A stretch of DNA of 10,082 nt from Tardiphaga sp. (lineage in GTDB: Bacteria; Pseudomonadota; Alphaproteobacteria; Rhizobiales; Xanthobacteraceae): assembly GCA_028290765.1 (NCBI GenBank), contig JAQGJF010000052.1:1-10082 (forward strand), in the 5' to 3' direction. Numbering within the stretch: the first letter of the stretch is position 1; the number at the start of each line of letters is the position of its first letter. A model generated the notes under the pieces. That model was not told the origin of the DNA, did not search any database, and was given only the letters and a program-made list of their open reading frames with translations. The position numbers and the translations under genes are program-made. Shown here piece by piece: positions 1 through 10,082 of this stretch.

Positions 1-308
1 ATCTGCTGGGCCAGTACGATGCGTCGCTGTCATGGGCGCGCGAGGCGCTGTATGCGACGCCCAATCATCTCCAGGTGCTCGCGGTGCGCGCCGCGGCGCT
101 GGCGCAATCCGGGCGCGCCGACGAAGCGGCGGAGGCCACCAGAACCTTGCTGGCCAGCTATCCGGGCCTGAGCGTGGAGCGGCATCTGCGCAATTTCCGC
201 TGGAAAGTCCCGGCCGACATCGCCCATTACCGCGATGGACTTTTGAAAGCCGGTGTCCCCCTCAGCCGATTGACGCTGGTCGACCCGGTCTCGAAGCGGT
301 CGGCCTGA
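1..308 (+). CDS. C-terminal end of a TPR-containing protein, probably a class III adenylate/guanylate cyclase (5' truncated by window)
   Basis: The reading frame is open from base 3 and ends in TGA at 306-308, giving about 101 C-terminal residues. The visible part holds a TPR-like helical pair (LGQYDASLSWAREAL, then HLQVLAVRAAALAQSGRADEA) with the usual small/large residue alternation and a proline-type turn (ATPNH). It is followed by a tail with FRWKVPADIAHYRDGLLKAG. Tails of this form (F-R-x-K-x-P-x-D-I-x-H-Y-x-x-G-L-x-x-A-G) are familiar from rhizobial adenylate/guanylate cyclases and TolB/TPR proteins, where TPRs follow an N-terminal catalytic or winged-helix domain. No catalytic domain is in the window, so the enzymatic assignment is inference. 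The TPR tail itself is clear. It is not connected with the genes to its right. Confidence 0.75.
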   Translation, partial: LLGQYDASLSWAREALYATPNHLQVLAVRAAALAQSGRADEAAEATRTLLASYPGLSVERHLRNFRWKVPADIAHYRDGLLKAGVPLSRLTLVDPVSKRSA

Positions 309-1861: not shown

Positions 1862-2599
1862 TCACGCAGGTTGTTTGCGCTTCTTTCGACGCATCGGCGA
1901 CACCTCCGTCGCTTCGTTCTTGAGTTTCTCAAGGATCAGATAGGACCCCTCGCGAAGATCGCGAACGGCTAGTTCCCCTGCTTCGCTTGGCGATTTCCTG
2001 CTCAATGCGTCAATAATCATCAAATGCGGATGGACTTCCGAATGAGCCCGGCGAACCTGAGGATATTGATTGTTCACGAACGGGCCTGCCAGAAGCCACA
2101 GATTCTCAATGATACGAACCAGAATCTCATTGTCGGACGCCCGATAAATCGCGAAATGAAATTCCTGGTTGGCCGCCAGCGCTTCCTTCCATTTCATGTC
2201 CTGCTCTGACTGAACGAACCGCTGGTGAAAAGTCCTCAGGCTCTCCAGCAAGGATTCCGTCATATTCACCGCGGCAAGTTCCGCCGCCAACCGTTCAAGC
2301 GGAACCCGCGCCTCGCGGATCTTGATATATTGAGGGATCGTCAGGACCGGTACGCGCGGTTGATGCCCGAGCCGGAGCTCCAAGGCGCCTTCGCGCACCA
2401 GCTGCATGACGGCTTCGCGCACCGGGGTTGGTGAGGTCTCGTAGCTGGCGGCAAGTCCGCGAATGTTGAGGCGCGCGCCAGACTCGTAAACGCCCGTCAT
2501 CAGGGCAAGCCGCAGGTGCCCGTATATCCTTTCGGAAAGGCTGTCGCGGAGGACGTCTGCCGGATCGTCGGCCCGAATGTCGGCGACGTTGGTGCTCAT
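1862..2599 (-). CDS. GntR family transcriptional regulator, FCD (FadR C-terminal) subfamily
   Basis: This 245-aa protein has the standard size and layout of FCD-type GntR repressors. The N-terminal winged helix-turn-helix spans about residues 18-85 (ERIYGHLRLALMTGVYESG, LNIRGLAASY, and TSPTPVREAVMQLVREGAL, which is the recognition-helix signature). A helical FCD effector domain covers about 95-225. Metal or ligand residues visible there are N144 and H148 (ANQEFHFAIYRAS) and H190/H192 (EVHPHL). The fourth position, usually His in an 'MRxHL'-like motif, reads AVRDLREG (D214). A Lys/Arg-rich tail ends the protein. ATG 2599 is preceded by AGGAG with 5-base spacing. It is divergent from the SMP-30 gene, and FCD regulators usually repress neighbouring transport and catabolism genes and are released by a pathway intermediate. 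I infer it binds the TGATATATCA palindromes at 2913-2926, 3153-3168, 6542-6557 and 6592-6607. Confidence 0.93.
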   Translation of the reverse strand: MSTNVADIRADDPADVLRDSLSERIYGHLRLALMTGVYESGARLNIRGLAASYETSPTPVREAVMQLVREGALELRLGHQPRVPVLTIPQYIKIREARVPLERLAAELAAVNMTESLLESLRTFHQRFVQSEQDMKWKEALAANQEFHFAIYRASDNEILVRIIENLWLLAGPFVNNQYPQVRRAHSEVHPHLMIIDALSRKSPSEAGELAVRDLREGSYLILEKLKNEATEVSPMRRKKRKQPA

Positions 2600-2910
2600 G
2601 CTGTCTCCTGCCCCAGCGAGGTCGCGCGTCGGCCGAACTCACAGGCGCCTATCTGCGATCCGGTTTCCGCGTCGGGTTGCATGACGGCCACTTCCGAGTT
2701 TCGAGTTTGATTTTGCGGCGCCCGTGTTGAGAAGGCTGTTTTGCCGGCCTCACGACCGCATATTCCCATTCGTTCGTCGAGACTATGTCGGCCAACTGGC
2801 TGAAGGAAACCGAAACAACGGCCGGCACGCGAGCAACGAGCCCCGCTTGTCCACAACCGCGGAAACATCGGCGCGTTCTCCGCAATGCCAGTACGGTAAA
2901 ACAATTTTGA

Positions 2911-2946
2911 TCGATGATATATCGTCAAGATCAATAACTTTGTCAA
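2911..2946 (-). promoter_or_regulatory. Probable gntR promoter with overlapping GATATATC operator
   Basis: On the minus strand a perfect -35 (TTGACA, plus coordinates 2941-2946) is followed after 17 bases by GATATA and the overlapping TATATC -10-like element (2916-2923). The same bases form an imperfect palindrome, GATGATATATCGTC at 2913-2926, whose core TGATATATCG differs by one base from the perfect operator at 3156-3165. Binding there would block the promoter, so autoregulation is likely (inference). Confidence 0.5.
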
Positions 2947-3136
2947 ACGCACCCGAGCCATGCGCAGCCACAGGCGCCCCTCAAGAGTGCCTGAATACAC
3001 TGGTTTCGTCGATTTTCAATACGTTATACCTTTCCTTTGGACATTTTCCAGGCCTCTCCCATTTCTGTCCAGCCGGCCGATTGCGTCTAATTTTGCTATC
3101 TCAAATTTGTACGCGCCCCCAGCCGCAAGATCACAC

Positions 3137-3168
3137 TCGACAAATAGATAGATTTTGATATATCAAAA
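3137..3168 (+). promoter_or_regulatory. Operator palindrome TTTTGATATATCAAAA with overlapping promoter for the SMP-30 gene
   Basis: Bases 3153-3168 are a perfect 16-bp inverted repeat, TTTTGATATATCAAAA. A -35-like TCGACA (3137-3142) and a -10-like TATATC (3159-3164) are separated by 16 bases, so the palindrome covers the -10. Operators of this size and AT-rich symmetric form are typical of GntR/FCD regulators, and a gene for one lies divergent to the left. This is the best candidate for the main operator of the catabolic genes. The predicted start of transcription is about 90 bases before the TTG start at 3259. Confidence 0.65.
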
Positions 3169-3258: not shown

Positions 3259-4149
3259 TTGTTGCCCACCCTGAAGTTCGAGACTTTGATCGACTTCAAT
3301 TTGGAAATCGGCGAGAGCCCCGTCTGGGATGAACGGCGAGGCGTCTTGTGGTTCGTGGACATTCTCTCCCCCGCGGTGCTCTGCCTCGAACCGCTGACCC
3401 GAAAGGTCGCGGCCTTCGCCATGCCGGCAGACGTCGGCAGCATCGGCCTTGCGTTCGACGCCCGTCTCGTCGTTGCCCTGCGCACCGGCGTTCACCTCTT
3501 CGATCCGGGCTCTGGCGAGTTGGTCTTTCTCGTCCATCCCGAACCTGACAGGGCGATGAATCGCCTCAACGACGGCAAGGTGGGGCCGGACGGCTGTTTC
3601 TGGATCGGCAGCATGCATGATTCCGTGCCCCGCGCACCGTCGGCGGCGCTCTATCGCGTCGCCCCGAGCGGCGAGAGTCTCCGCGTGCTGGACGGGATCA
3701 AGGTATCGAACGGCCTGGCGTGGAGCCCCGACGGACGGACAATGTATCATGCCGACAGCCGCGGATCTTACATCAACGCTTTCGATTTCGATGTTGCGAC
3801 GGGCGGTCTTTCGAATGCGCGCGCGTTGATGACGTTGACGGAGGAGCAGGGCCTGCCTGACGGGGCAGCCGTGGATAATTCGGGATTCTACTGGAGCGCC
3901 GGCGTCACCGCCGGAAAGCTCAACAAAATCTCGCCGCAAGGCATTCTGGTGGAGAGTGTCGAACTTCCCGTCTCCGCCCCGACGATGCCCTGCTTCGGCG
4001 GCCATGACGGAGGGACCATTTTCGTCACCTCCCTTGCCTCTGACAGATCCGGCCGCCACGAGCAGGGAACGCTCATCTCTTTCGAAACCGATGCCGTCGG
4101 CGCACCGGTCGGCCGGTTCGGCGACGTCATGACCCCGGCTCGCTCGTAG
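3259..4149 (+). CDS. SMP-30/gluconolactonase/LRE family hydrolase (sugar- or aldono-lactonase-like)
   Basis: This 296-aa protein is a six-bladed beta-propeller of the SMP-30/regucalcin/gluconolactonase family, of typical length. The canonical divalent-metal ligands are visible: E19 (IGESPVWD), N104 (RLNDGKVGPDG), N151 (SNGLAWSPDG) and D201 (LPDGAAVDNSG). Also present are FWIGSM at 114-119 and, near the C-terminus, the family motif APTMPCFGG-DGGTIFVTS. Family members hydrolyse aldonolactones or related esters in the cytoplasm; there is no signal peptide. An in-frame ATG at 3208 gives 17 extra residues without homology or ribosome binding site. TTG 3259 follows GAGGAG (3247-3252) at 6-base spacing and places the conserved ExGESPVWD region at its usual distance from the N-terminus, so TTG is preferred. 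It is the first gene of the proposed catabolic series. Substrate unknown. Confidence 0.92.
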   Translation: MLPTLKFETLIDFNLEIGESPVWDERRGVLWFVDILSPAVLCLEPLTRKVAAFAMPADVGSIGLAFDARLVVALRTGVHLFDPGSGELVFLVHPEPDRAMNRLNDGKVGPDGCFWIGSMHDSVPRAPSAALYRVAPSGESLRVLDGIKVSNGLAWSPDGRTMYHADSRGSYINAFDFDVATGGLSNARALMTLTEEQGLPDGAAVDNSGFYWSAGVTAGKLNKISPQGILVESVELPVSAPTMPCFGGHDGGTIFVTSLASDRSGRHEQGTLISFETDAVGAPVGRFGDVMTPARS

Positions 4150-4213
4150 ATGTGCCGTGCCGACCACCGATGGCGCGACGGGGCCACCGGAGCCGGTTGG
4201 CGGACCCCATTTC

Positions 4214-4223
4214 TGATATACGA
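4214..4223. promoter_or_regulatory. Degenerate operator-like sequence in the 137-base gap before the PLP enzyme gene
   Basis: TGATATACGA matches the putative operator core TGATATATCA at 8 of 10 positions and lies about 65 bases before the PLP-enzyme start. The rest of the gap (4150-4286) shows only a short GC inverted repeat (ACCGGAGCCGGT). The match could be chance; it would matter only if an internal promoter exists here. Confidence 0.2.
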
Positions 4224-4286
4224 TATGGCATACGAAGGGCTCGCCAGACTGTTTTTGGCCAGCGTCAAACCTAAAGGACATGACTT

Positions 4287-5588
4287 ATGAGCGGCTCTCG
4301 CCGCGGCTCAAACGAGGCCGCTCTTGATCTCAGGGAGAAAGGCACGCCCGCGTTAGACGGTCCGGTAGCGCTCGCAGCGGTCGGCGCGCAGGACTGGCGA
4401 GTCCTGCGCGAAGACCTGCCGCTCCCGATCGCCGTGATCAAGGAGCGCGCACTTCGTCACAACAGCGCATGGATGAAGGCTTTTCTGGCGGATGGAGGCG
4501 CCATGATCGCGCCTCATGGCAAGACGACCATGAGTCCGGCGCTGTTCGATCTTCAATTGGACGATGGCGCCTGGGCGGTGACGCTCGCCACGCCTCATCA
4601 GATCCAGGTCGCCCGAAGCTTCGGCTATAACCGTATCTTCCTGGCCAATCAGCTCGTCGGGCGCGCCGCCATCGAATATGTGCTGCGCGAGTTGAGGGAC
4701 CACCCGGATTTTGAGTTTTACTGCCTGGTCGACTCGGTCGCCAACGCCCAGGCGATCTCCCATGCGGCGGAGCAGCTCAAACTCACCCGCCCCGTGAACC
4801 TACTGGTCGAACTCGGCTATGCCGGCGGGCGGACAGGCTGTCGCACCGTCGACGAGGCCGTCGCCTTGGCGTCATTTGTGAGCAGGTCGGACAAAATCCG
4901 GCTCAGCGGCATCGAGGGTTTTGAGGGCCTGCTGCGAGGCGATTCTCCCGAGAAGACCGCGGCACTCGTCAACGCCTTCCTCGACGATCTGGTCGGTCTT
5001 GCAGAGATATGCGCGAGCCAAGGGCTGTTCCCCGACGAGACGATTATCCTCAGCGCCGGCGGATCGTCCTTCTACGATCTCGTCGTCGCCAAACTGAAGG
5101 CGGCGAAGCTGGCCCGACCAAGCATCGTTCTGCTGCGCGCCGGCTGCTACATCACCCATGATTCCCTGATGTATGTGCGGGCGTTCGATGCGCTGCGCCA
5201 GCGCGATCCGGACCTTGCGGCGAAGGGCGGCGGCCTTCAACCAGCCCTGGAGATCTGGGCCTACGTCCAGTCCAGGCCTGAGCCGACGAAGGCCATCCTC
5301 GGGTTCGGAAAGCGCGATGCGTCCCATGACGACCTGCCCGTCGCCTTGTCGTGGTTTCGCCCCGGTGGCGCGATGGATCGTCCTGTTGCCATGCCACGCG
5401 GACACGACGTTCTCAGGCTGAACGACCAGCATTGCCATATGGCGATCCCGCAGGATTCACCGCTTTCGGTGGGGGATATGGTCGCTTTCGGAATCTCCCA
5501 TCCCTGCCTGACCTTCGACAAATGGCGGGTCATTCATCTGGTCGACGATGATTACCGCGTGACCTCGTCGATCCGAACCTACTTTTAA
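4287..5588 (+). CDS. D-serine deaminase-like PLP enzyme (fold type III, alanine racemase N-terminal barrel; DSD1 / D-threonine aldolase family)
   Basis: This 433-aa enzyme has the two-domain layout of the DSD1/D-threonine aldolase/D-threo-3-hydroxyaspartate dehydratase group. An alanine-racemase-type TIM barrel carries the PLP lysine K79 in APHGKTTMSPALF. Later barrel strands read LVDSVANAQ, NLLVELGYAGGRTGCR and LSAGGSSFYDL. The C-terminal beta domain has the zinc-site pattern GISHPCLTFDKW (H405 and C407), as in eukaryotic DSD1, where His-X-Cys binds the catalytic zinc, so a metal-dependent lyase is more likely than a racemase. Known members remove ammonia from D-serine or 3-hydroxy-D-aspartate, or cleave D-threonine; the substrate here is unknown and annotators often write 'amino acid deaminase'. 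ATG 4287 has AAGGA (4274-4278) at 8-base spacing. The gene ends 51 bases before the SDR start, so co-transcription is likely. Confidence 0.9.
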   Translation: MSGSRRGSNEAALDLREKGTPALDGPVALAAVGAQDWRVLREDLPLPIAVIKERALRHNSAWMKAFLADGGAMIAPHGKTTMSPALFDLQLDDGAWAVTLATPHQIQVARSFGYNRIFLANQLVGRAAIEYVLRELRDHPDFEFYCLVDSVANAQAISHAAEQLKLTRPVNLLVELGYAGGRTGCRTVDEAVALASFVSRSDKIRLSGIEGFEGLLRGDSPEKTAALVNAFLDDLVGLAEICASQGLFPDETIILSAGGSSFYDLVVAKLKAAKLARPSIVLLRAGCYITHDSLMYVRAFDALRQRDPDLAAKGGGLQPALEIWAYVQSRPEPTKAILGFGKRDASHDDLPVALSWFRPGGAMDRPVAMPRGHDVLRLNDQHCHMAIPQDSPLSVGDMVAFGISHPCLTFDKWRVIHLVDDDYRVTSSIRTYF

Positions 5589-5639
5589 TTGCGCGGCGGC
5601 CGCCGCATGGCGCGTTCAGTCCCGATCCAAGAGGATGTC

Positions 5640-6497
5640 ATGAAAAGCGATAAATCAAAGGTCTATCTCATCACCGGCGCCGCCAGCGGGATCGGAGCCG
5701 CGACGGCCAGGCTCGCCGCTTCGCTTGGTCATAAGGTCGTTATCGCCGACATCAACGATGAAGCAGCGAAGGCCGTCGCGGCGGCGGCGGGCGTCAACGC
5801 CACCGCTCTCCATCTCGACATCTGCTCGAGCGACCAATGGGAGGCGACGCTCGATGAGGTCTGGAAGCGTTTTGGCCGCCTCGACGTTCTCGTCAACAAC
5901 GCGGCGGTGGTTCACACCGGCTACGCGCGGGACGTCGCCGTCAAGAAGCACGAGCATACCGTTGCCACCAACTTCATGGGGCCGCTGACCGGAATGCTCG
6001 CAGCATTGCCGCGGTTCCGACGGCAAGGATCCGGACATCTCGTGACAATCTGCAGCATGACGGCCTTTCTGCCGTTTCCGGGTATTGCGAGCTATGCCGC
6101 GGCCAAACACGCCCTACGCGCATTCCATCATGCCGTCGCCCTGGAAGAGCGGGACGGTCCGACGGCATTCACGATCATCCACCCGACGTCCACGGAGACG
6201 CCGATGCTGGAGAAGGAAGCGGAGGACGATGCGATGTCCCTCGCCTTCGCCGGCCCGTCGATGACAGCCGAGCAGGCCGCCGAGACGATCATGAAAGCGA
6301 TCAAATCGAAGACGCTCGAAGTGTTCATGCCGCCCGAACGGGGCAAGATCGTGCGCGCCGTTGGCGTTAACCCGCGCAGCCTGAAGAAATTGGTTGAACG
6401 CAACGAAATCATCGGCCGCGAGCGCCTTGCCGCGCGACGGGCCGCGCTGGTGGCGGGCCAGGGAGCCGGGGCGCCCGACGGATCCGGCCCGGCATAA
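5640..6497 (+). CDS. Short-chain dehydrogenase/reductase (classical SDR, NAD(H)-preferring)
   Basis: This 285-aa protein has all marks of a classical SDR. The Rossmann glycine motif is TGAASGIG (12-19), with an Asp at the end of beta-2 (ADIND, D37) that favours NAD(H). NNAA follows at 86-89, N111 in ATNFMG, and the catalytic triad is S139 (ICSM), Y152 and K156 (SYAAAKHAL). HPTSTETPM follows beta-6 in place of the usual PG..T. The last 50 or so residues are a basic extension (LKKLVERNEIIGRERLAARRAAL) ending in Gly/Ala/Pro. The ATG at 5640 follows AAGAGGATGTC. An upstream ATG (5607) and a TTG (5589) in frame lack ribosome binding sites and add Arg-rich sequence without family match. It probably oxidises an alcohol intermediate in the pathway (inference). 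It is the last gene before a second operator-bearing gap. Confidence 0.92.
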   Translation: MKSDKSKVYLITGAASGIGAATARLAASLGHKVVIADINDEAAKAVAAAAGVNATALHLDICSSDQWEATLDEVWKRFGRLDVLVNNAAVVHTGYARDVAVKKHEHTVATNFMGPLTGMLAALPRFRRQGSGHLVTICSMTAFLPFPGIASYAAAKHALRAFHHAVALEERDGPTAFTIIHPTSTETPMLEKEAEDDAMSLAFAGPSMTAEQAAETIMKAIKSKTLEVFMPPERGKIVRAVGVNPRSLKKLVERNEIIGRERLAARRAALVAGQGAGAPDGSGPA

Positions 6498-6541
6498 GCC
6501 GGATGGACTCCCCCGGGGTCTCTTGGCGCACATTCGCCACA

Positions 6542-6557
6542 AAAAGATATATCAAAA
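6542..6557. promoter_or_regulatory. Operator-like site 1 upstream of the solute-binding protein gene
   Basis: AAAAGATATATCAAAA shares the core GATATATC and the right half of the perfect palindrome at 3153-3168; the left TTTT is AAAA. Its core AGATATATCA is a 9/10 match to TGATATATCA. It lies 50 bases (centre to centre) from the second site, close to five helical turns, which would suit cooperative binding by GntR dimers (inference). Confidence 0.5.
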
Positions 6558-6575
6558 TAGATAAAAATGGTGATC

Positions 6576-6607
6576 TCGATATAGACATGGATTTTGATAT
6601 ATGATTT
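6576..6607 (+). promoter_or_regulatory. Operator-like site 2 with probable promoter for the solute-binding protein gene
   Basis: TTTTGATATATGATTT at 6592-6607 matches the complete left half and centre of TTTTGATATATCAAAA. It overlaps TATGAT (6600-6605), a 5/6 match to the -10 consensus, with a weaker -35-like TCGATA (6576-6581) 18 bases upstream. Transcription would begin around 6612, leaving a leader of about 75 bases before ATG 6687. The site is strong evidence that the transporter and amidohydrolase genes form a second unit under the same regulator as the SMP-30 unit. Confidence 0.5.
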
Positions 6608-6686
6608 CTTCAATTCTCGGCAACGATCGCGTCCCCAGTGTCCGGTCGTCGTCCTGACCGGCATCCGCATCGAGATGGAGCGTCCC

Positions 6687-8282
6687 ATGCAACGTCGCCA
6701 GTTTCTTTCGACTGCCGCAGCTACCGCTGGCCTGGCTCTTGCGCCACTTTCTCTGCGAAGAGCACACGCTGCGGGAGCAAGCCGAGTCCTCAAATTCATT
6801 CCTCAAGCCGACCTCGCCATTCTCGATCCTCTGGCCACCACAGCCTATGTCACGCGTAATCACGCACTCATGGTGTTCGACACCCTGTTTGGCGTCGATG
6901 AGCAGTACAATGCGCAGCCTCAGATGATTGAGGGCTACACCGTCGAAAACGACGGAAAGCTGTGGCGACTGACGTTAAGAGAAGGTCTTCGCTTCCACGA
7001 CAACGAGCCGGTTCTTTCGAAGGACGTCGTCGCGAGCATTAACCGATGGGGCAAGCGGGACATCTACGCTGGCGCCCTGATGGCCGTTCTCAACGACCTG
7101 GTCGCGACGTCCGATCGCGTGGTCGAGTTCCATCTTTCGAAGCCCTTCGGCCAACTGCCAAACCTGTTAGGCAAACCAGCCTCCAATCTCGCGGTGATCA
7201 TGCCGGAGCGTCTCGCCCTCACCGACCCCATGAAGCAGGTCAGCGAGATCGTCGGCAGCGGGCCGTTCAGGTTTGTCGCGCGCGAAAGAAACCCCGGCGC
7301 TCTGAACGTCTATGAAAAATTCGCTGGCTACGTCCCCAGGAACGGAACGCCAAGCTATATCTCGGGGCCGAAGGTTGCCAATTTCGATCGCGTCGAATGG
7401 CATACCTTGCCGGATCCTTCCACCGCCGCTGCCGCGCTCCAGGCGGGCGAGATGGATTGGTGGGAACAGCCGACATCCGACCTCGCTCCTCTTCTGCGAT
7501 CGAACCCCAACATTAAAGTTCAGGTGCAGGACCCCGCGGGCTTTACGGGCCTGATGCGCTTCAATCATCTGCAGCCGCCGTTTGACAATCCGGCGATCCG
7601 CCGTGCGATTCTGGGCGGAATTCTACAATCTGATTACATGCTTGCGGTCGTTGGCGAAAATCAAGCGATGTGGCGCGAGGGCATGGGCTTCTTTCATCCC
7701 GACTCGCCGATGGCGAGCAAGGTCGGTTTGGACGTCTTCCCCGCCAAGGTCGATCTGGGCAAAGTCAAAGCCGACCTTCAGGCCGCCGGCTATAAGAACG
7801 AGCGCGTCGTGATGCTCGCGACGGCGGACTTTCCCGCCATCGACATCATGAGCCAGATCGCGGCCGATATGCTGCGGAAGATCGGGATGAATCTCGACTA
7901 TCAGGCGCAGGATTGGGCGACGGTCTCCACTCGGATGCAATCCAAGGAACCGATCGGCAACGGCGGATGGAGCGTCACCTGCAATTTCACTGCCGGCATA
8001 GGCCTCTATAATCCGGCGGCCCACACCTGGCTCCGAAGCAATGGGCCGAAGGCGTTTGTCGGCTGGCCATCAATTCCCGAGATCGAAAAGCTGCGCCTCG
8101 ATTGGTTCGACGCTCCGGATGTCGCCACGCAACAGACGATCTGCCAGAACATCCAAAAGGCGGCCTTCGATCAGGTGCCCTACGTTCCGTTGGGCTTTTA
8201 TTATCAGCCGACCGCGTTCCGCTCGAATTTGACCGGCATCCTGAAGGGCGTCCCGATGTTCTACAACGTCCAGCGCGTCTAA
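6687..8282 (+). CDS. ABC transporter substrate-binding protein, peptide/opine/nickel family (SBP family 5), Tat-type signal
   Basis: This 531-aa periplasmic protein begins MQRRQFLSTAAATAGLALAP with a twin-arginine RRQFL motif, a hydrophobic stretch and a likely cleavage site at AHA28-AG, so export through Tat is probable. The mature part has family-5 signatures: LKFIPQADLAILDPLATT, a first lobe with GYTVENDGKLWRLTLREG and FHDNEPVLSKDVVASINRW, IVGSGPFRF, and later ALQAGEMDWWEQP, LMRFNHLQPPFDNPAIRRAI and VPYVPLGFYYQPTAFR. Length is normal for the family (about 500-550 aa). These proteins deliver peptides, opines, sugars or other polar organics to an ABC permease; ligand unknown here. ATG 6687 has GGAG at 6-base spacing; an in-frame ATG at 6594 would hide the signal peptide behind 31 residues. 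No permease or ATPase genes follow directly; they may lie beyond the window. Confidence 0.93.
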   Translation: MQRRQFLSTAAATAGLALAPLSLRRAHAAGASRVLKFIPQADLAILDPLATTAYVTRNHALMVFDTLFGVDEQYNAQPQMIEGYTVENDGKLWRLTLREGLRFHDNEPVLSKDVVASINRWGKRDIYAGALMAVLNDLVATSDRVVEFHLSKPFGQLPNLLGKPASNLAVIMPERLALTDPMKQVSEIVGSGPFRFVARERNPGALNVYEKFAGYVPRNGTPSYISGPKVANFDRVEWHTLPDPSTAAAALQAGEMDWWEQPTSDLAPLLRSNPNIKVQVQDPAGFTGLMRFNHLQPPFDNPAIRRAILGGILQSDYMLAVVGENQAMWREGMGFFHPDSPMASKVGLDVFPAKVDLGKVKADLQAAGYKNERVVMLATADFPAIDIMSQIAADMLRKIGMNLDYQAQDWATVSTRMQSKEPIGNGGWSVTCNFTAGIGLYNPAAHTWLRSNGPKAFVGWPSIPEIEKLRLDWFDAPDVATQQTICQNIQKAAFDQVPYVPLGFYYQPTAFRSNLTGILKGVPMFYNVQRV

Positions 8283-8293
8283 GGGCGAATGAA

Positions 8294-8401
8294 ATGAATA
8301 GGCTGGTTGCAGGGCGCGTCTTCGTCCGAAGCTTGGCCTTTCCGTTCGCACTGCGCCAAGCCGCCATCGAAGACGAAGCTGTCGGAGCCCTGGATGCTTG
8401 A
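8294..8401 (+). CDS. Possible 35-aa small ORF upstream of the amidohydrolase small subunit
   Basis: ATG 8294 opens a 35-codon frame (MNRLVAGRVFVRSLAFPFAL at its start) ending in TGA 8399-8401. It fills most of the 111-base gap after the binding-protein gene and overlaps the start of the next gene (8394) by 8 bases. The ribosome binding site is weak (AAGG at 8281-8284). The overlap would permit translational coupling, but no homology is recognised and it may be a chance frame. Confidence 0.25.
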   Translation: MNRLVAGRVFVRSLAFPFALRQAAIEDEAVGALDA

Positions 8402-8744
8402 GAACGATCCCTCGGCTGCTCATTACCCGATCGACCCCGATCGGCTCGACCTCGTCGAGGAATTTCGGCGCGCGCCCAAAGGACCTCATGGCGACGAACT
8501 TCAGAAGGTCTTGCATCGTATGCGCTGGAGCGGAGAAGCGCGGCGTTATTGTGCGCTGGTCGTCGAGCCAGGACGAAAATGGATGCTGGGACGCCTTCCC
8601 GCCATGCGCGGTCAGCCCATCGAGAAGTTTGCCGACAGGATTTTTACAAGCCTGGCCGATGTCGAGTGGGAAGTTTTCTGTCGCCGCTGGGAAGCCATAA
8701 CCGGCCGAACCCTGCCAATCCGTCTGCGAGACCGAGCGCCATGA
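8394..8744 (+). CDS. N,N-dimethylformamidase-like small (alpha) subunit
   Basis: This 116-aa helical protein directly precedes a dimethylformamidase (DMFase)-type large subunit and resembles the DMFase small subunit as I remember it. The order is an acidic N-terminus, then LVEEFRRAPKG (compare IVEEHAANPFG), DELQKVLHRMRW (compare SPYLQRVHNYFRM), a strand pair RYCALVVEPGRKWMLGRL, FADRIFTSLADVEWEVFCRR (compare ERFKTEEEAMHAVFLRR) and a C-terminal helix. In the known enzyme (alpha-2 beta-2 or larger assemblies) this subunit is needed for stability of the large catalytic subunit. ATG 8394 has GGAG (8384-8387) at 6-base spacing; open frame continues upstream without a better start. Its TGA overlaps the large-subunit ATG (ATGA at 8741-8744), implying coupled translation and balanced amounts. 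The remote similarity is judged from memory; the neighbour strengthens it. Confidence 0.7.
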   Translation: MLENDPSAAHYPIDPDRLDLVEEFRRAPKGPHGDELQKVLHRMRWSGEARRYCALVVEPGRKWMLGRLPAMRGQPIEKFADRIFTSLADVEWEVFCRRWEAITGRTLPIRLRDRAP

Positions 8745-10082
8745 TCGATACAACATCCGTCCTCGGCTATGCCTGGCCGCTCGCCGCCGCTGCAGGCGAA
8801 CGAATTCAGTTTCATTTGAGCAGCGCGTCCTTGTCGAAAGCCAATGTTCGCGTCGTCCGCGTCCGCTGCGGCGATCCCGATCCCTTAGGCCCCGGCTTGC
8901 GGACAACAGCGATGGAAGCGGATATCAGCGGATCGCTCGCTCTCAAGTTTCAACCGATACATCCGGGCTCCTATGCATTCGTCGAAGACAGGGCAGCCTT
9001 CGCGTCGGCGCGCGATCTGTCATTTGGATGCTATCTGTTCCCGACGATCGTCGGCGGGAAGCCGCAGACGATCGCCTCGCGCTGGAACGGACCCGAGGCG
9101 ACGGGTTGGAAGCTCGAACTCGACGATCAGGGGTGCCTCTGCCTCGTCGTCGGGGCCGATGGAAAGCGCGCGATAGTTCGCGCACCCAAGCCTTTGCTCG
9201 TCCGGGAATGGGCGTTTGTCGGCGCGATTATCGCGCCGTCGCAAGGGCGCATTGAGATCCATCAATCCAGCCTTGCGCGGGACGGCGGTCGCGACCGAAG
9301 CGCCTCCGCCGAAGCCGCGTGCCCGAACGCCCTCGCATGGCCTGCCAAGACGCCGCTTATTCTCGCCGCGGAATCGACTGGCGCCGCTGACAGCAACCCG
9401 CCGACGACACAACACTACAATGGTAAGATCGACCGGCCGCGACTTTACGACCGCGCCCTGCCCGCTGCAGCGCTTCGCGGTCTCGTCGAGGCGCTACGGC
9501 CAGCCGCTGACGATCCGAACCTGCTTGCCGCCTGGGATTTCAGTCAGGGGATTTCCGGCGATCGCATCGTCGATCTCTCCGCCAACCGCTGCGACGGCCT
9601 GCTCCGTCAACTTCCCATGCGGGCGGCGACGGGTGCGAATTGGGACGGCGCCGCGCTGAGCTGGAATGAGGCGCCCTGGCAATATGGCGCAATTCACTTC
9701 CACGAGGACGATCTGCAGGACTGCAGCTGGGAGCCGACCTGCAGTCTCACGATCCCCTCGAATTGGCGGTCGGGCTTCTATGCCCTGGAATTGACCGCCG
9801 ACCTGCCCTCGGGGCGCATCGAAAGTTATGTGTCGTTCTTTGTAAGAGCGCCACGTGGGCGCGCCACGGCGCCGTTGCTGTTCGTGGCCTCGACGGCGAC
9901 GTTTCTTGCCTACGCCAATATCGGCACTAGGCTCGACCAGCCGGGCTTCGAGGTGCACAGCGAAGGCCTCGTCACCCTGAGCGCCGACGACGTCTATCTC
10001 AGCGAACATCGTGAGCTCGGCCTTTCCTCCTACGACACCCACACCGATGGAAGCGGGGTCTGCTACTCCTCGGGCGCCCGGC
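8741..10082 (+). CDS. N,N-dimethylformamidase-like large (beta) subunit, 3' end beyond the window
   Basis: ATG 8741 opens a frame without stops to the window end (447 codons; known DMFase large subunits are about 760 aa, so about 40% is missing). Residues 1-90 begin VLGYAWPLAAAAGERIQFHL, typical for the family start. About 90-305 is a LamG/concanavalin-like domain (YNGKIDRPRLYDRALPAAAL, LLAAWDFS, DLSANRCDGLL). The catalytic region begins with WRSGFYALEL, LLFVASTATFLAYAN and SYDTHTDGSGVCYSS. The characterised Paracoccus enzyme uses a mononuclear iron held by two Tyr and one Glu (as I recall, Tyr399, Tyr440 and Glu521). Y391 and Y431 here lie in matching motifs 40 residues apart, so both Tyr ligands seem kept; the Glu would lie past the window. 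The family cleaves N-C amide bonds, but with this neighbourhood the substrate need not be dimethylformamide. Confidence 0.85.
   Translation, partial: MIDTTSVLGYAWPLAAAAGERIQFHLSSASLSKANVRVVRVRCGDPDPLGPGLRTTAMEADISGSLALKFQPIHPGSYAFVEDRAAFASARDLSFGCYLFPTIVGGKPQTIASRWNGPEATGWKLELDDQGCLCLVVGADGKRAIVRAPKPLLVREWAFVGAIIAPSQGRIEIHQSSLARDGGRDRSASAEAACPNALAWPAKTPLILAAESTGAADSNPPTTQHYNGKIDRPRLYDRALPAAALRGLVEALRPAADDPNLLAAWDFSQGISGDRIVDLSANRCDGLLRQLPMRAATGANWDGAALSWNEAPWQYGAIHFHEDDLQDCSWEPTCSLTIPSNWRSGFYALELTADLPSGRIESYVSFFVRAPRGRATAPLLFVASTATFLAYANIGTRLDQPGFEVHSEGLVTLSADDVYLSEHRELGLSSYDTHTDGSGVCYSSGAR

Follow-up and report, generated by a model that had tools for sequence, protein, structure and literature searches.

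Gene content of the locus

We analyzed a 10,082-nucleotide stretch of Tardiphaga sp. DNA (positions 1 to 10,082 of contig JAQGJF010000052.1, assembly GCA_028290765.1), hereafter the window, which carries the seven genes of the locus: six on the plus strand, running from 3259 to 10082, and a divergently oriented gene for a GntR/FCD protein on the minus strand. The six encode a lactonase of the SMP-30/gluconolactonase family, a fold-type III pyridoxal phosphate (PLP) deaminase, a short-chain dehydrogenase (SDR), a family-5 extracellular solute-binding protein (SBP), and the small and large subunits of an amidohydrolase of the dimethylformamidase (DMFase) type (Table 1). An earlier reading of the sequence alone (the original prediction) had placed six plus-strand genes of named families beside a divergent GntR/FCD gene, and both the open reading frame (ORF) calls and the family matches confirmed this arrangement.

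The genes for the small and large subunits overlap by the bases ATGA at 8741–8744, a sign of coupling. The window ends within the large-subunit gene, of which 447 codons could be read, while close relatives of the protein are approximately 748 residues long.

Table 1. Genes and predicted operator-like sites in the window, with the matches or matrix scores on which each assignment rests.
Feature	Position	Strand	Match or score
GntR/FCD regulator	1862–2599	-	PF07729 70.5 bits, PF00392 47.3 bits
Weak operator-like site TTTTGATCGATGATAT	2905–2920		score 13.1
Operator-like site TTTTGCTATCTCAAAT before SMP-30	3091–3106		score 19.2
Perfect 16-base palindrome TTTTGATATATCAAAA, main predicted operator before SMP-30	3153–3168		score 30.7
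SMP-30/gluconolactonase-family lactonase	3259–4149	+	PF08450 252 bits; TTG start, GAGGAG ahead of start
Operator-like site TTCTGATATACGATAT before deaminase	4211–4226		score 16.1
Fold-type III PLP deaminase (D-serine deaminase/OngC-like)	4287–5588	+	PF14031, PF01168; PDB 3gwq 346 bits
Short-chain dehydrogenase (SDR)	5640–6497	+	PF00106 151 bits
Operator-like site AAAAGATATATCAAAA before SBP	6542–6557		score 20.9
Operator-like site TTTTGATATATGATTT before SBP	6592–6607		score 21.6
Family-5 extracellular solute-binding protein (SBP)	6675–8282	+	PF00496 (SBP_bac_5) 191 bits; PDB 8vdx 498 bits
DMFase-type small subunit	8394–8744	+	profile match to 6lvb_B, 32.8 bits, E 5e-7
DMFase-type large subunit, cut at window end	8741–10082	+	PF20254 83 bits; 6lvb 222 bits; 8huy 201 bits

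Recurrence of the gene set in other replicons

Counterparts of all seven window genes are clustered in three other replicons: genome G559 (locus L027), a plasmid of Agrobacterium larrymoorei (L001) and genome G953 (L103). In G559 the gene order is that of the window, with identities of 73–84%, and the set is followed by two permeases, two ATPases and an Eda-type aldolase; we took this cluster as the continuation of the window past 10082 (ABC genes, aldolase). A 35-kb region of the A. larrymoorei plasmid, found by tblastn among 72,556 plasmid records, holds a counterpart of each window gene at 54–71% identity, with the deaminase (64.9%) and the large subunit (54.1%) encoded about 10 kb apart. 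The G953 cluster occupies about 14 kb and runs SMP-30, HpcH aldolase, RidA, GntR, permeases, ATPases, SBP, small subunit, large subunit, deaminase and SDR, at 47–64% identity to the window. Listed in the order G559, A. larrymoorei and G953, the GntR/FCD counterparts share 84, 71 and 63% identity with the window protein, the small subunits 82, 68 and 55%, and the SDRs, encoded directly after the deaminase in every case, 80, 63 and 54%.

Eleven contigs were apparently common to the best 120 of 797 large-subunit relatives and the best 120 of 6403 deaminase relatives, as matched by size and by eye. One of them is the A. larrymoorei plasmid and four are shorter than 22 kb (12486, 16189, 19527 and 21935), suggesting that there are further cases in which the deaminase and the large subunit are linked.

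The neighborhood is thus a recurring unit. We reject a chance association because the seven-gene set recurs in three other replicons and because the clusters have a predicted operator in common. Both results uphold the earlier claim that the genes belong together. Failure of the set to recur in other genomes had been named as an outcome that would count against that claim; recurrence was found, though the complete set occurs in few genomes.

A common predicted operator

The perfect palindrome TTTTGATATATCAAAA lies 90 bases ahead of the SMP-30 gene, and an identical site precedes SMP-30 in G559. Its 14-base core, with up to 2 mismatches allowed, occurs twice in the window, compared to 0.01 occurrences expected. 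With up to 3 mismatches the full 16-mer was found three times in the A. larrymoorei region (0.06 expected), twice in G559 (0.01) and twice in G953 (0.03), and all seven places precede a unit of the gene set. It did not occur in the Pseudoroseomonas stretch (L002).

We then scored the window with a matrix made from five sites of A. larrymoorei and G953 only, the window being left out of training. The six top-scoring places all fell in the gaps before SMP-30, the deaminase and the SBP. Five places scored at least 14, compared to 0.05 in whole-window shuffles, and none of 1000 dinucleotide shuffles matched the best score in any of these three gaps. The gaps before the SDR and the small subunit contained no site, with 569 and 841 of 1000 shuffles, respectively, scoring as well. 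A. larrymoorei has sites upstream of the ABC-SBP-DMFase unit and of SMP-30, and in the gap that separates the HpcH-RidA unit from the mutarotase-ALDH-deaminase-SDR unit. When a matrix from all eight sites was used, G559 had sites in the same three gaps as the window (the counterpart in the deaminase gap is at L027 11307). Sites were also seen in genome G160 (L029; 30.7 and 23.4) and, weaker, in Pseudoroseomonas (21.6), whose DMFases pair with aminotransferases. In the 13 other stretches scanned with this matrix the top score was 16.2, and those lacking a site include the Variovorax locus L004 and four loci that combine deaminase and SMP-30 (G405, G303, G518 and Novosphingobium).

In our judgement it is very likely that the window genes form one regulated unit. 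They probably constitute a single regulon, and the GntR/FCD protein is probably the regulator of the whole unit, which it would control by binding the predicted sites.

The DMFase-type amidohydrolase

The small-subunit ORF had no Pfam match and, as a single sequence, no PDB match above chance level. A profile of 28 sequences, on the other hand, placed the DMFase small subunit 6lvb_B at the top, the next match having E 0.07. A full-length relative, P0001, which is 94% identical to the large subunit over the window part, scored 476.6 bits to DMFase (6lvb) and 432.7 bits to N-acetyl-(R)-beta-phenylalanine acylase (8huy, 8i59, 8i5a). According to the name in the PDB record, the latter is a large chain of the DMFase family that hydrolyzes an N-acyl amino acid; no paper on it was found in the literature searched. 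The predicted DMFase-like pair therefore stands in that both subunits were identified, with the qualification that the large one is incomplete in the window and the small one is recognizable by profile only.

The structural and mutational study of Paracoccus DMFase gives Y399, Y440 and E521 as iron ligands, lists H519, N547 and E657 as needed, and credits Phe693 with the poor use of larger amides (PMC7686228). The window protein keeps the first two ligands as Tyr391 and Tyr431, and P0001 has all six residues. Across 45 aligned large subunits Y399, Y440, H519, E521 and E657 were kept in every row, and N547 in 43. Like the Paracoccus enzyme, the window type has two subunits, homology over nearly the full length (P0001), and the Tyr/Tyr/Glu iron ligands together with His, Asn and Glu. 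It differs in lacking the Phe693 constriction and in its genomic setting, beside genes for sugar-acid and PLP enzymes and, among relatives, for an ABC importer.

In a tree of the 45 large subunits, P0001, G559, A. larrymoorei and G953 formed one clade (support 100/99). The Phe693 position in these four rows is Thr, Thr, Ala and Val (Thr in P0001), although the loop aligns loosely. This tells against N,N-dimethylformamide (DMF) but names no substrate, as Phe is not general in the family: outside a larger clade of ten rows it occupies this position in just 6 of 35. From the homology to DMFase it might be supposed that the substrate is DMF or a similar solvent and that the neighboring genes are unrelated. 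We give this next to no credence, since the recurrence in three other replicons, the single operator and the Thr/Thr/Ala/Val series largely refute it. DMF was rejected as the probable substrate on the non-Phe residues of the clade and the sugar-acid/PLP partners. The earlier view that the amidohydrolase is probably not meant for DMF agrees with these two observations.

In the stretches read, the deaminase gene accompanied DMFase in all four rows of the clade and in none of the other 41. The four rows join six others in the clade of ten (100/100), and in five of these six a class III aminotransferase takes part. We looked at four such clusters (Pseudoroseomonas L002, Variovorax L003 and L004, and G160), in which the DMFases are sisters of the window type. 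The small subunit is present in four of four, a family-5 SBP in three and a GntR gene in three. In these clusters the amine presumably goes to the aminotransferase, in contrast to the deaminase of the window type. In the Pseudoroseomonas DMFase cluster (L002, 6938–11968) the aminotransferase is nearest in the PDB to aminopentol aminotransferase 6hbs (428.5 bits), and the same stretch encodes a 3-oxo-tetronate kinase above cut-off (372 vs 350), a gene of this kind being found in G160 as well. Variovorax paradoxus VAI-C has an aminotransferase-SBP-small-large-SDR-ABC operon on two plasmids of one strain (L003, CP063168; L004, CP063167).

In another DMFase branch (L031/G009, L107/G923, L109/G758 and L110/G851) the DMFase genes directly adjoin phosphoglucose isomerase and phosphoglucomutase genes. 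L107 and L110 also have a sulfatase whose C-terminus is of the N-sulphoglucosamine-sulphohydrolase type, and L107 has a gene of the histidinol-dehydrogenase family.

The PLP-dependent deaminase

The deaminase matched PF14031 with 62.2 bits (cut-off 22), and the lysine of its APHGKTTM motif, which we take to be the PLP lysine, was kept in all 23 aligned rows. We predict from these matches that it is a 2-amino-3-hydroxy acid ammonia-lyase. It is 38% identical over 98% of its length to the deaminase of an ong-like cluster in Pseudoalteromonas shioyasakiensis. The name given to it originally, DSD1-like lyase, is right as to the family; it is better called a relative of 3gwq and, at 38%, of the ong-like enzyme.

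D-Glucosaminate dehydratases are known from Pseudomonas and Agrobacterium. A glucosaminate deaminase gene is mentioned for Cupriavidus in a genome paper (PMC2842291). In the ong pathway, OngC converts glucosaminate to 2-keto-3-deoxygluconate (KDG) after OngB has deacetylated GlcNAc1A (PMC9537276).

A tree of 26 deaminases did not join the window enzyme with the ong-like one. It fell in a seven-row clade of moderate support (90/89), in all seven rows of which SMP-30 is encoded nearby or is fused to the deaminase. The fused case, P0129, has 732 residues with SMP-30 and deaminase in one frame; barring an error of assembly, the two genes have fused there. The G303 and G518 deaminases, which also have SMP-30 nearby, fall elsewhere in the tree. 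Two Comamonadaceae plasmids encode a 43% identical deaminase together with a family-5 SBP, ABC genes, RidA and a D-aminoacylase, and one of them adds 2-dehydro-3-deoxygalactonate kinase and aldolase. The D-aminoacylase suggests that the place of the deacylase can be filled by unrelated enzymes. In A. larrymoorei (L001, 8106–10051) the DMFase large subunit is directly followed by another enzyme of the DSD1 family (BhcC-like, 292 bits, cut-off 690) and another SDR.

One possibility is that the locus serves the catabolism of N-acyl-D-amino acids. The DMFase-like enzyme would then be the analogue of a D-aminoacylase for N-acyl-D-serine, N-acyl-D-threonine or another D-beta-hydroxy-amino acid derivative, such as a lipoamino acid or a fragment of the wall, and a plain 2-keto acid would be the product of the deaminase. 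The closest solved structure to the deaminase, 3gwq, is named D-serine deaminase, OngC also takes D-serine and D-threonine, the DMFase relative 8huy is named for an N-acyl amino acid, and family-5 SBPs often bind peptides. However, the lactonase, aldolases and mutarotase of the sister clusters would be left unexplained, though in A. larrymoorei they are under the same predicted operator, and we consider this explanation unlikely.

Another possibility is that one regulator governs two pathways, a DMFase module (both subunits, SBP, ABC) that deacylates an N-acyl amine, and an SMP-30/SDR/deaminase module that takes a second product arising when the parent compound is degraded. In the stretches read of Novosphingobium, G303 and G518, SMP-30 and deaminase do occur with no DMFase gene. 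The partner of sister DMFases is a class III aminotransferase, under an operator that is similar in G160 and more weakly so in Pseudoroseomonas, and the second DSD1-family enzyme and SDR of A. larrymoorei stand directly after DMFase. Such a division is hard to reconcile with G953, where the small subunit, large subunit, deaminase and SDR are consecutive, or with the pairing of DMFase and deaminase in four of four rows of the clade; we hold it to be quite improbable.

Lactonase, dehydrogenase, transporter and aldolases

The SMP-30 protein scored 146 bits to regucalcin 4gnb, and its ESPVW, NRxNDG, SNGL and PDG blocks, which are presumably metal binding, were kept. The SDR is predicted to be a sugar or sugar-acid dehydrogenase. 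The SBP carries the twin-arginine motif RRQFL, with a Pfam TAT_signal score of 17.3 bits, under the cut-off of 22.7. Modeling of the SBP with AlphaFold on 4 sequences gave a structure of low confidence (mean pLDDT 41.3). The relative 8vdx has been solved but bears no functional name.

Outside the window, the sister clusters encode pyruvate aldolases of two unrelated kinds, Eda in G559 and HpcH in A. larrymoorei and G953. The G559 Eda is above its NCBIfam cut-off (212.8 vs 156), while the HpcH proteins are nearest to HpaI, GarL and RhmA and under the cut-offs of these. Annotated in the A. larrymoorei region are an aldose 1-epimerase (mutarotase) and an aldehyde dehydrogenase (ALDH) of the SSADH-like type, and an XylB-like SDR (344.6 bits, cut-off 400) lies about 1.5 kb past Eda in G559, behind an opposite-strand gene. 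No sugar-acid dehydratase is annotated beside the A. larrymoorei genes; the reference set used for the other clusters held a protein of the mandelate-racemase type but no IlvD/EDD. A protein of the DHDPS family in L055 was considered as a third aldolase and dropped, its nearest NCBIfam match being 52 bits against a cut-off of 278.

It could be speculated that the substrate is an N-acyl-homoserine lactone or another acylated amino-lactone, opened by the SMP-30 lactonase and deacylated by the DMFase-like acylase, with the aldolase acting on 4-hydroxy-2-oxobutanoate. From what is known of the families this would account at once for the lactonase, the amidase and the pyruvate aldolase; however, homoserine has no beta-hydroxyl, which makes it unfit for the chemistry of the deaminase, and the mutarotase and XylB-like SDR of the relatives suggest sugars. 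We regard it as very improbable.

A predicted pathway for N-acyl amino sugars

Our reading draws on what was computed: the gene identities, the recurrence, the common predicted operator, the kept catalytic residues and the clade-specific pairing. An N-acyl amino sugar, or the corresponding lactone or aldonate, would suit the combination of a lactonase, an SDR and two unrelated pyruvate aldolases with the deaminase and the amidohydrolase. We give somewhat better than an even chance to the explanation that through this locus, under GntR control, an N-acyl 2-amino-2-deoxy sugar or the lactone or acid derived from it is taken up and degraded oxidatively.

From the gene families we infer the reactions, their order, the binding of the regulator and the class of substrate as follows. 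The SBP and a peptide-type ABC transporter, seen downstream in G559, would import the compound. Oxidation of the aldose, or of an intermediate further on, would fall to the SDR, and opening of the lactone to the SMP-30 enzyme. In the cytoplasm the two-subunit ferric-iron DMFase-like enzyme would hydrolyze the N-acyl amide, the deacylated form being a 2-amino-2-deoxyaldonic acid, that is, an amino-sugar acid. By PLP-dependent beta-elimination the deaminase would then take off the 2-amino group together with the 3-hydroxyl. The resulting 2-keto-3-deoxy acid would be split into pyruvate and a short aldehyde by the pyruvate aldolase, which is Eda in G559 and HpcH in the other two sister clusters.

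The original prediction had the enzyme acting on a larger amide of a hydroxy-amino acid. A D-hydroxy-amino acid as the deacylated intermediate does fit the deaminase; of the opine-like conjugate suggested with it there was no sign, and it was rejected, no opine-type gene having been seen.

Among the closest described systems is the ong cluster for GlcNAc1A catabolism in Pseudoalteromonas prydzensis ACAM 620, in which a fold-type III PLP deaminase from the same family likewise acts after N-deacylation (PMC9537276; deacetylase, PMC12017989). The deacylase is the D-aminoacylase-like OngB in ong and of the DMFase type here. No OngB-type D-aminoacylase was matched by blastp in L027, L028, L103 and L104, and none is annotated in L001. 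Import in ong relies on an SSS transporter and TonB receptors, whereas the window has an SBP, joined in relatives by an ABC importer. Both KdgK and RidA are essential in ong, whereas in the three sister clusters no kinase was matched or annotated and RidA is found in two. The SMP-30 and SDR of the window are a further difference, and the regulator is OngR in ong and of the GntR/FCD type here. We therefore say that the window locus would work like ong and do not file it as a member, because no OngB-type deacylase or kinase was found in the sister clusters and the deaminase may not be an orthologue of OngC.

Non-phosphorylative sugar-acid pathways combine an SDR, an SMP-30 lactonase, a dehydratase and a 2-keto-3-deoxy acid aldolase. 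The SDR, SMP-30 and pyruvate aldolase of the sister clusters resemble these, with the deaminase apparently in place of the sugar-acid dehydratase.

Our tentative proposal, rather more doubtful than the pathway itself, is that a DMFase-family iron amidohydrolase has been recruited as an N-deacylase of amino sugars or amino-sugar acids in a terrestrial, ABC-fed, lactone-forming oxidative amino-sugar pathway parallel to marine ong, and that within the same DMFase branch the partner that removes the nitrogen has alternated between a deaminase acting by beta-elimination and a class III aminotransferase, under an operator that stayed similar. Among the matches listed, whose titles and abstracts were searched and from which subscription papers were mostly absent, no paper joined DMFase with the deaminase, SMP-30 or sugar catabolism.

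Distribution of the gene set and points against the pathway

Large-subunit matches were found in 10 of 299, 3 of 347, 2 of 12, 2 of 4 and 31 of 385 genomes, in samples that overlap and were searched at different thresholds, and in 73 plasmid records, four of which were examined. A large-subunit scan of genome contigs gave two distant loci, L006 and L007 (the L006 region is that of L033). A deaminase gene lay within 15 kb, in the stretch read, in 3 of 44 large-subunit rows. In a sample of 11 deaminase loci from the order, two of which (L054 and L057) end at contig edges, SMP-30 was near in four (G559, G405, G303 and G518) and DMFase as well in one (G559). Eleven of 368 plasmid records with a deaminase match were examined, and SMP-30 was present in A. 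larrymoorei and Novosphingobium; the Pseudoalteromonas NC201 record is unannotated at the deaminase. In Eleftheria terrae (L067, 7703–10236) an annotated "lactonase family protein" adjoins a deaminase relative of 42.9% identity, possibly following the same lactone-plus-deaminase logic. A Pfam check of ten ORFs each around the looser deaminase and DMFase loci added nothing to our reading.

A number of observations weigh against the amino-sugar pathway. The complete gene set is rare and limited to one branch. Among 15 deaminase loci sampled from the class, SMP-30 or DMFase adjoined in G953 only (the stretch was 14 kb or shorter in four of the other 14 loci). A DMFase match was also found in 9 of the 15 genomes, well above what the overall rate of 31 in 385 would predict for independent genomes, although these genomes are not independent and kinship was uncontrolled; in eight of these nine it was on another contig or, in G774, 333 kb off. 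In G405 the deaminase and SMP-30 are together, while DMFase is on another contig and in another branch and there is no operator site. Deaminases from other contexts are nearer to the window enzyme (44–47%) than the ong-like one is. The SDR is generic, with 177 bits to PRK07825 against a cut-off of 287, and for the H519, E521, N547 and E657 positions of the large subunit, which fall outside the window, the residues are those of relatives. The usual substrate of Eda is a phosphorylated acid or 4-hydroxy-2-oxoglutarate, and no sugar kinase matched the reference set in the G559 and G953 clusters or is annotated in the A. larrymoorei region; a whole-genome kinase search in G559 and G953 gave 29–30% matches only. 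A 40-kb stretch of G559 showed no RidA gene, which A. larrymoorei and G953 both have. Finally, OngC itself deaminates D-serine and D-threonine (PMC9537276).

Other features of the window

At the start of the window (3–308) stands the truncated end of a TPR-containing protein, whose matches are weak and under the Pfam cut-offs. No clear genes lie between 400 and 1860, where a plus-strand ORF of 142 amino acids (1326–1754) had no Pfam or NCBIfam match.

Implications for the DMFase family

PF20254 proteins carry the name dimethylformamidase among the matches listed, and many of the proteins so named may never meet DMF. Through its gene set, operator and clade, one branch of these iron amidohydrolases is tied to the predicted deamination of an amino-sugar or hydroxy-amino acid, which gives the branch a concrete candidate class of natural substrates. 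If the proposed pathway is true, oxidative amino-sugar breakdown, which has been described for marine chitin degraders, would extend to the Alphaproteobacteria with a different deacylase.

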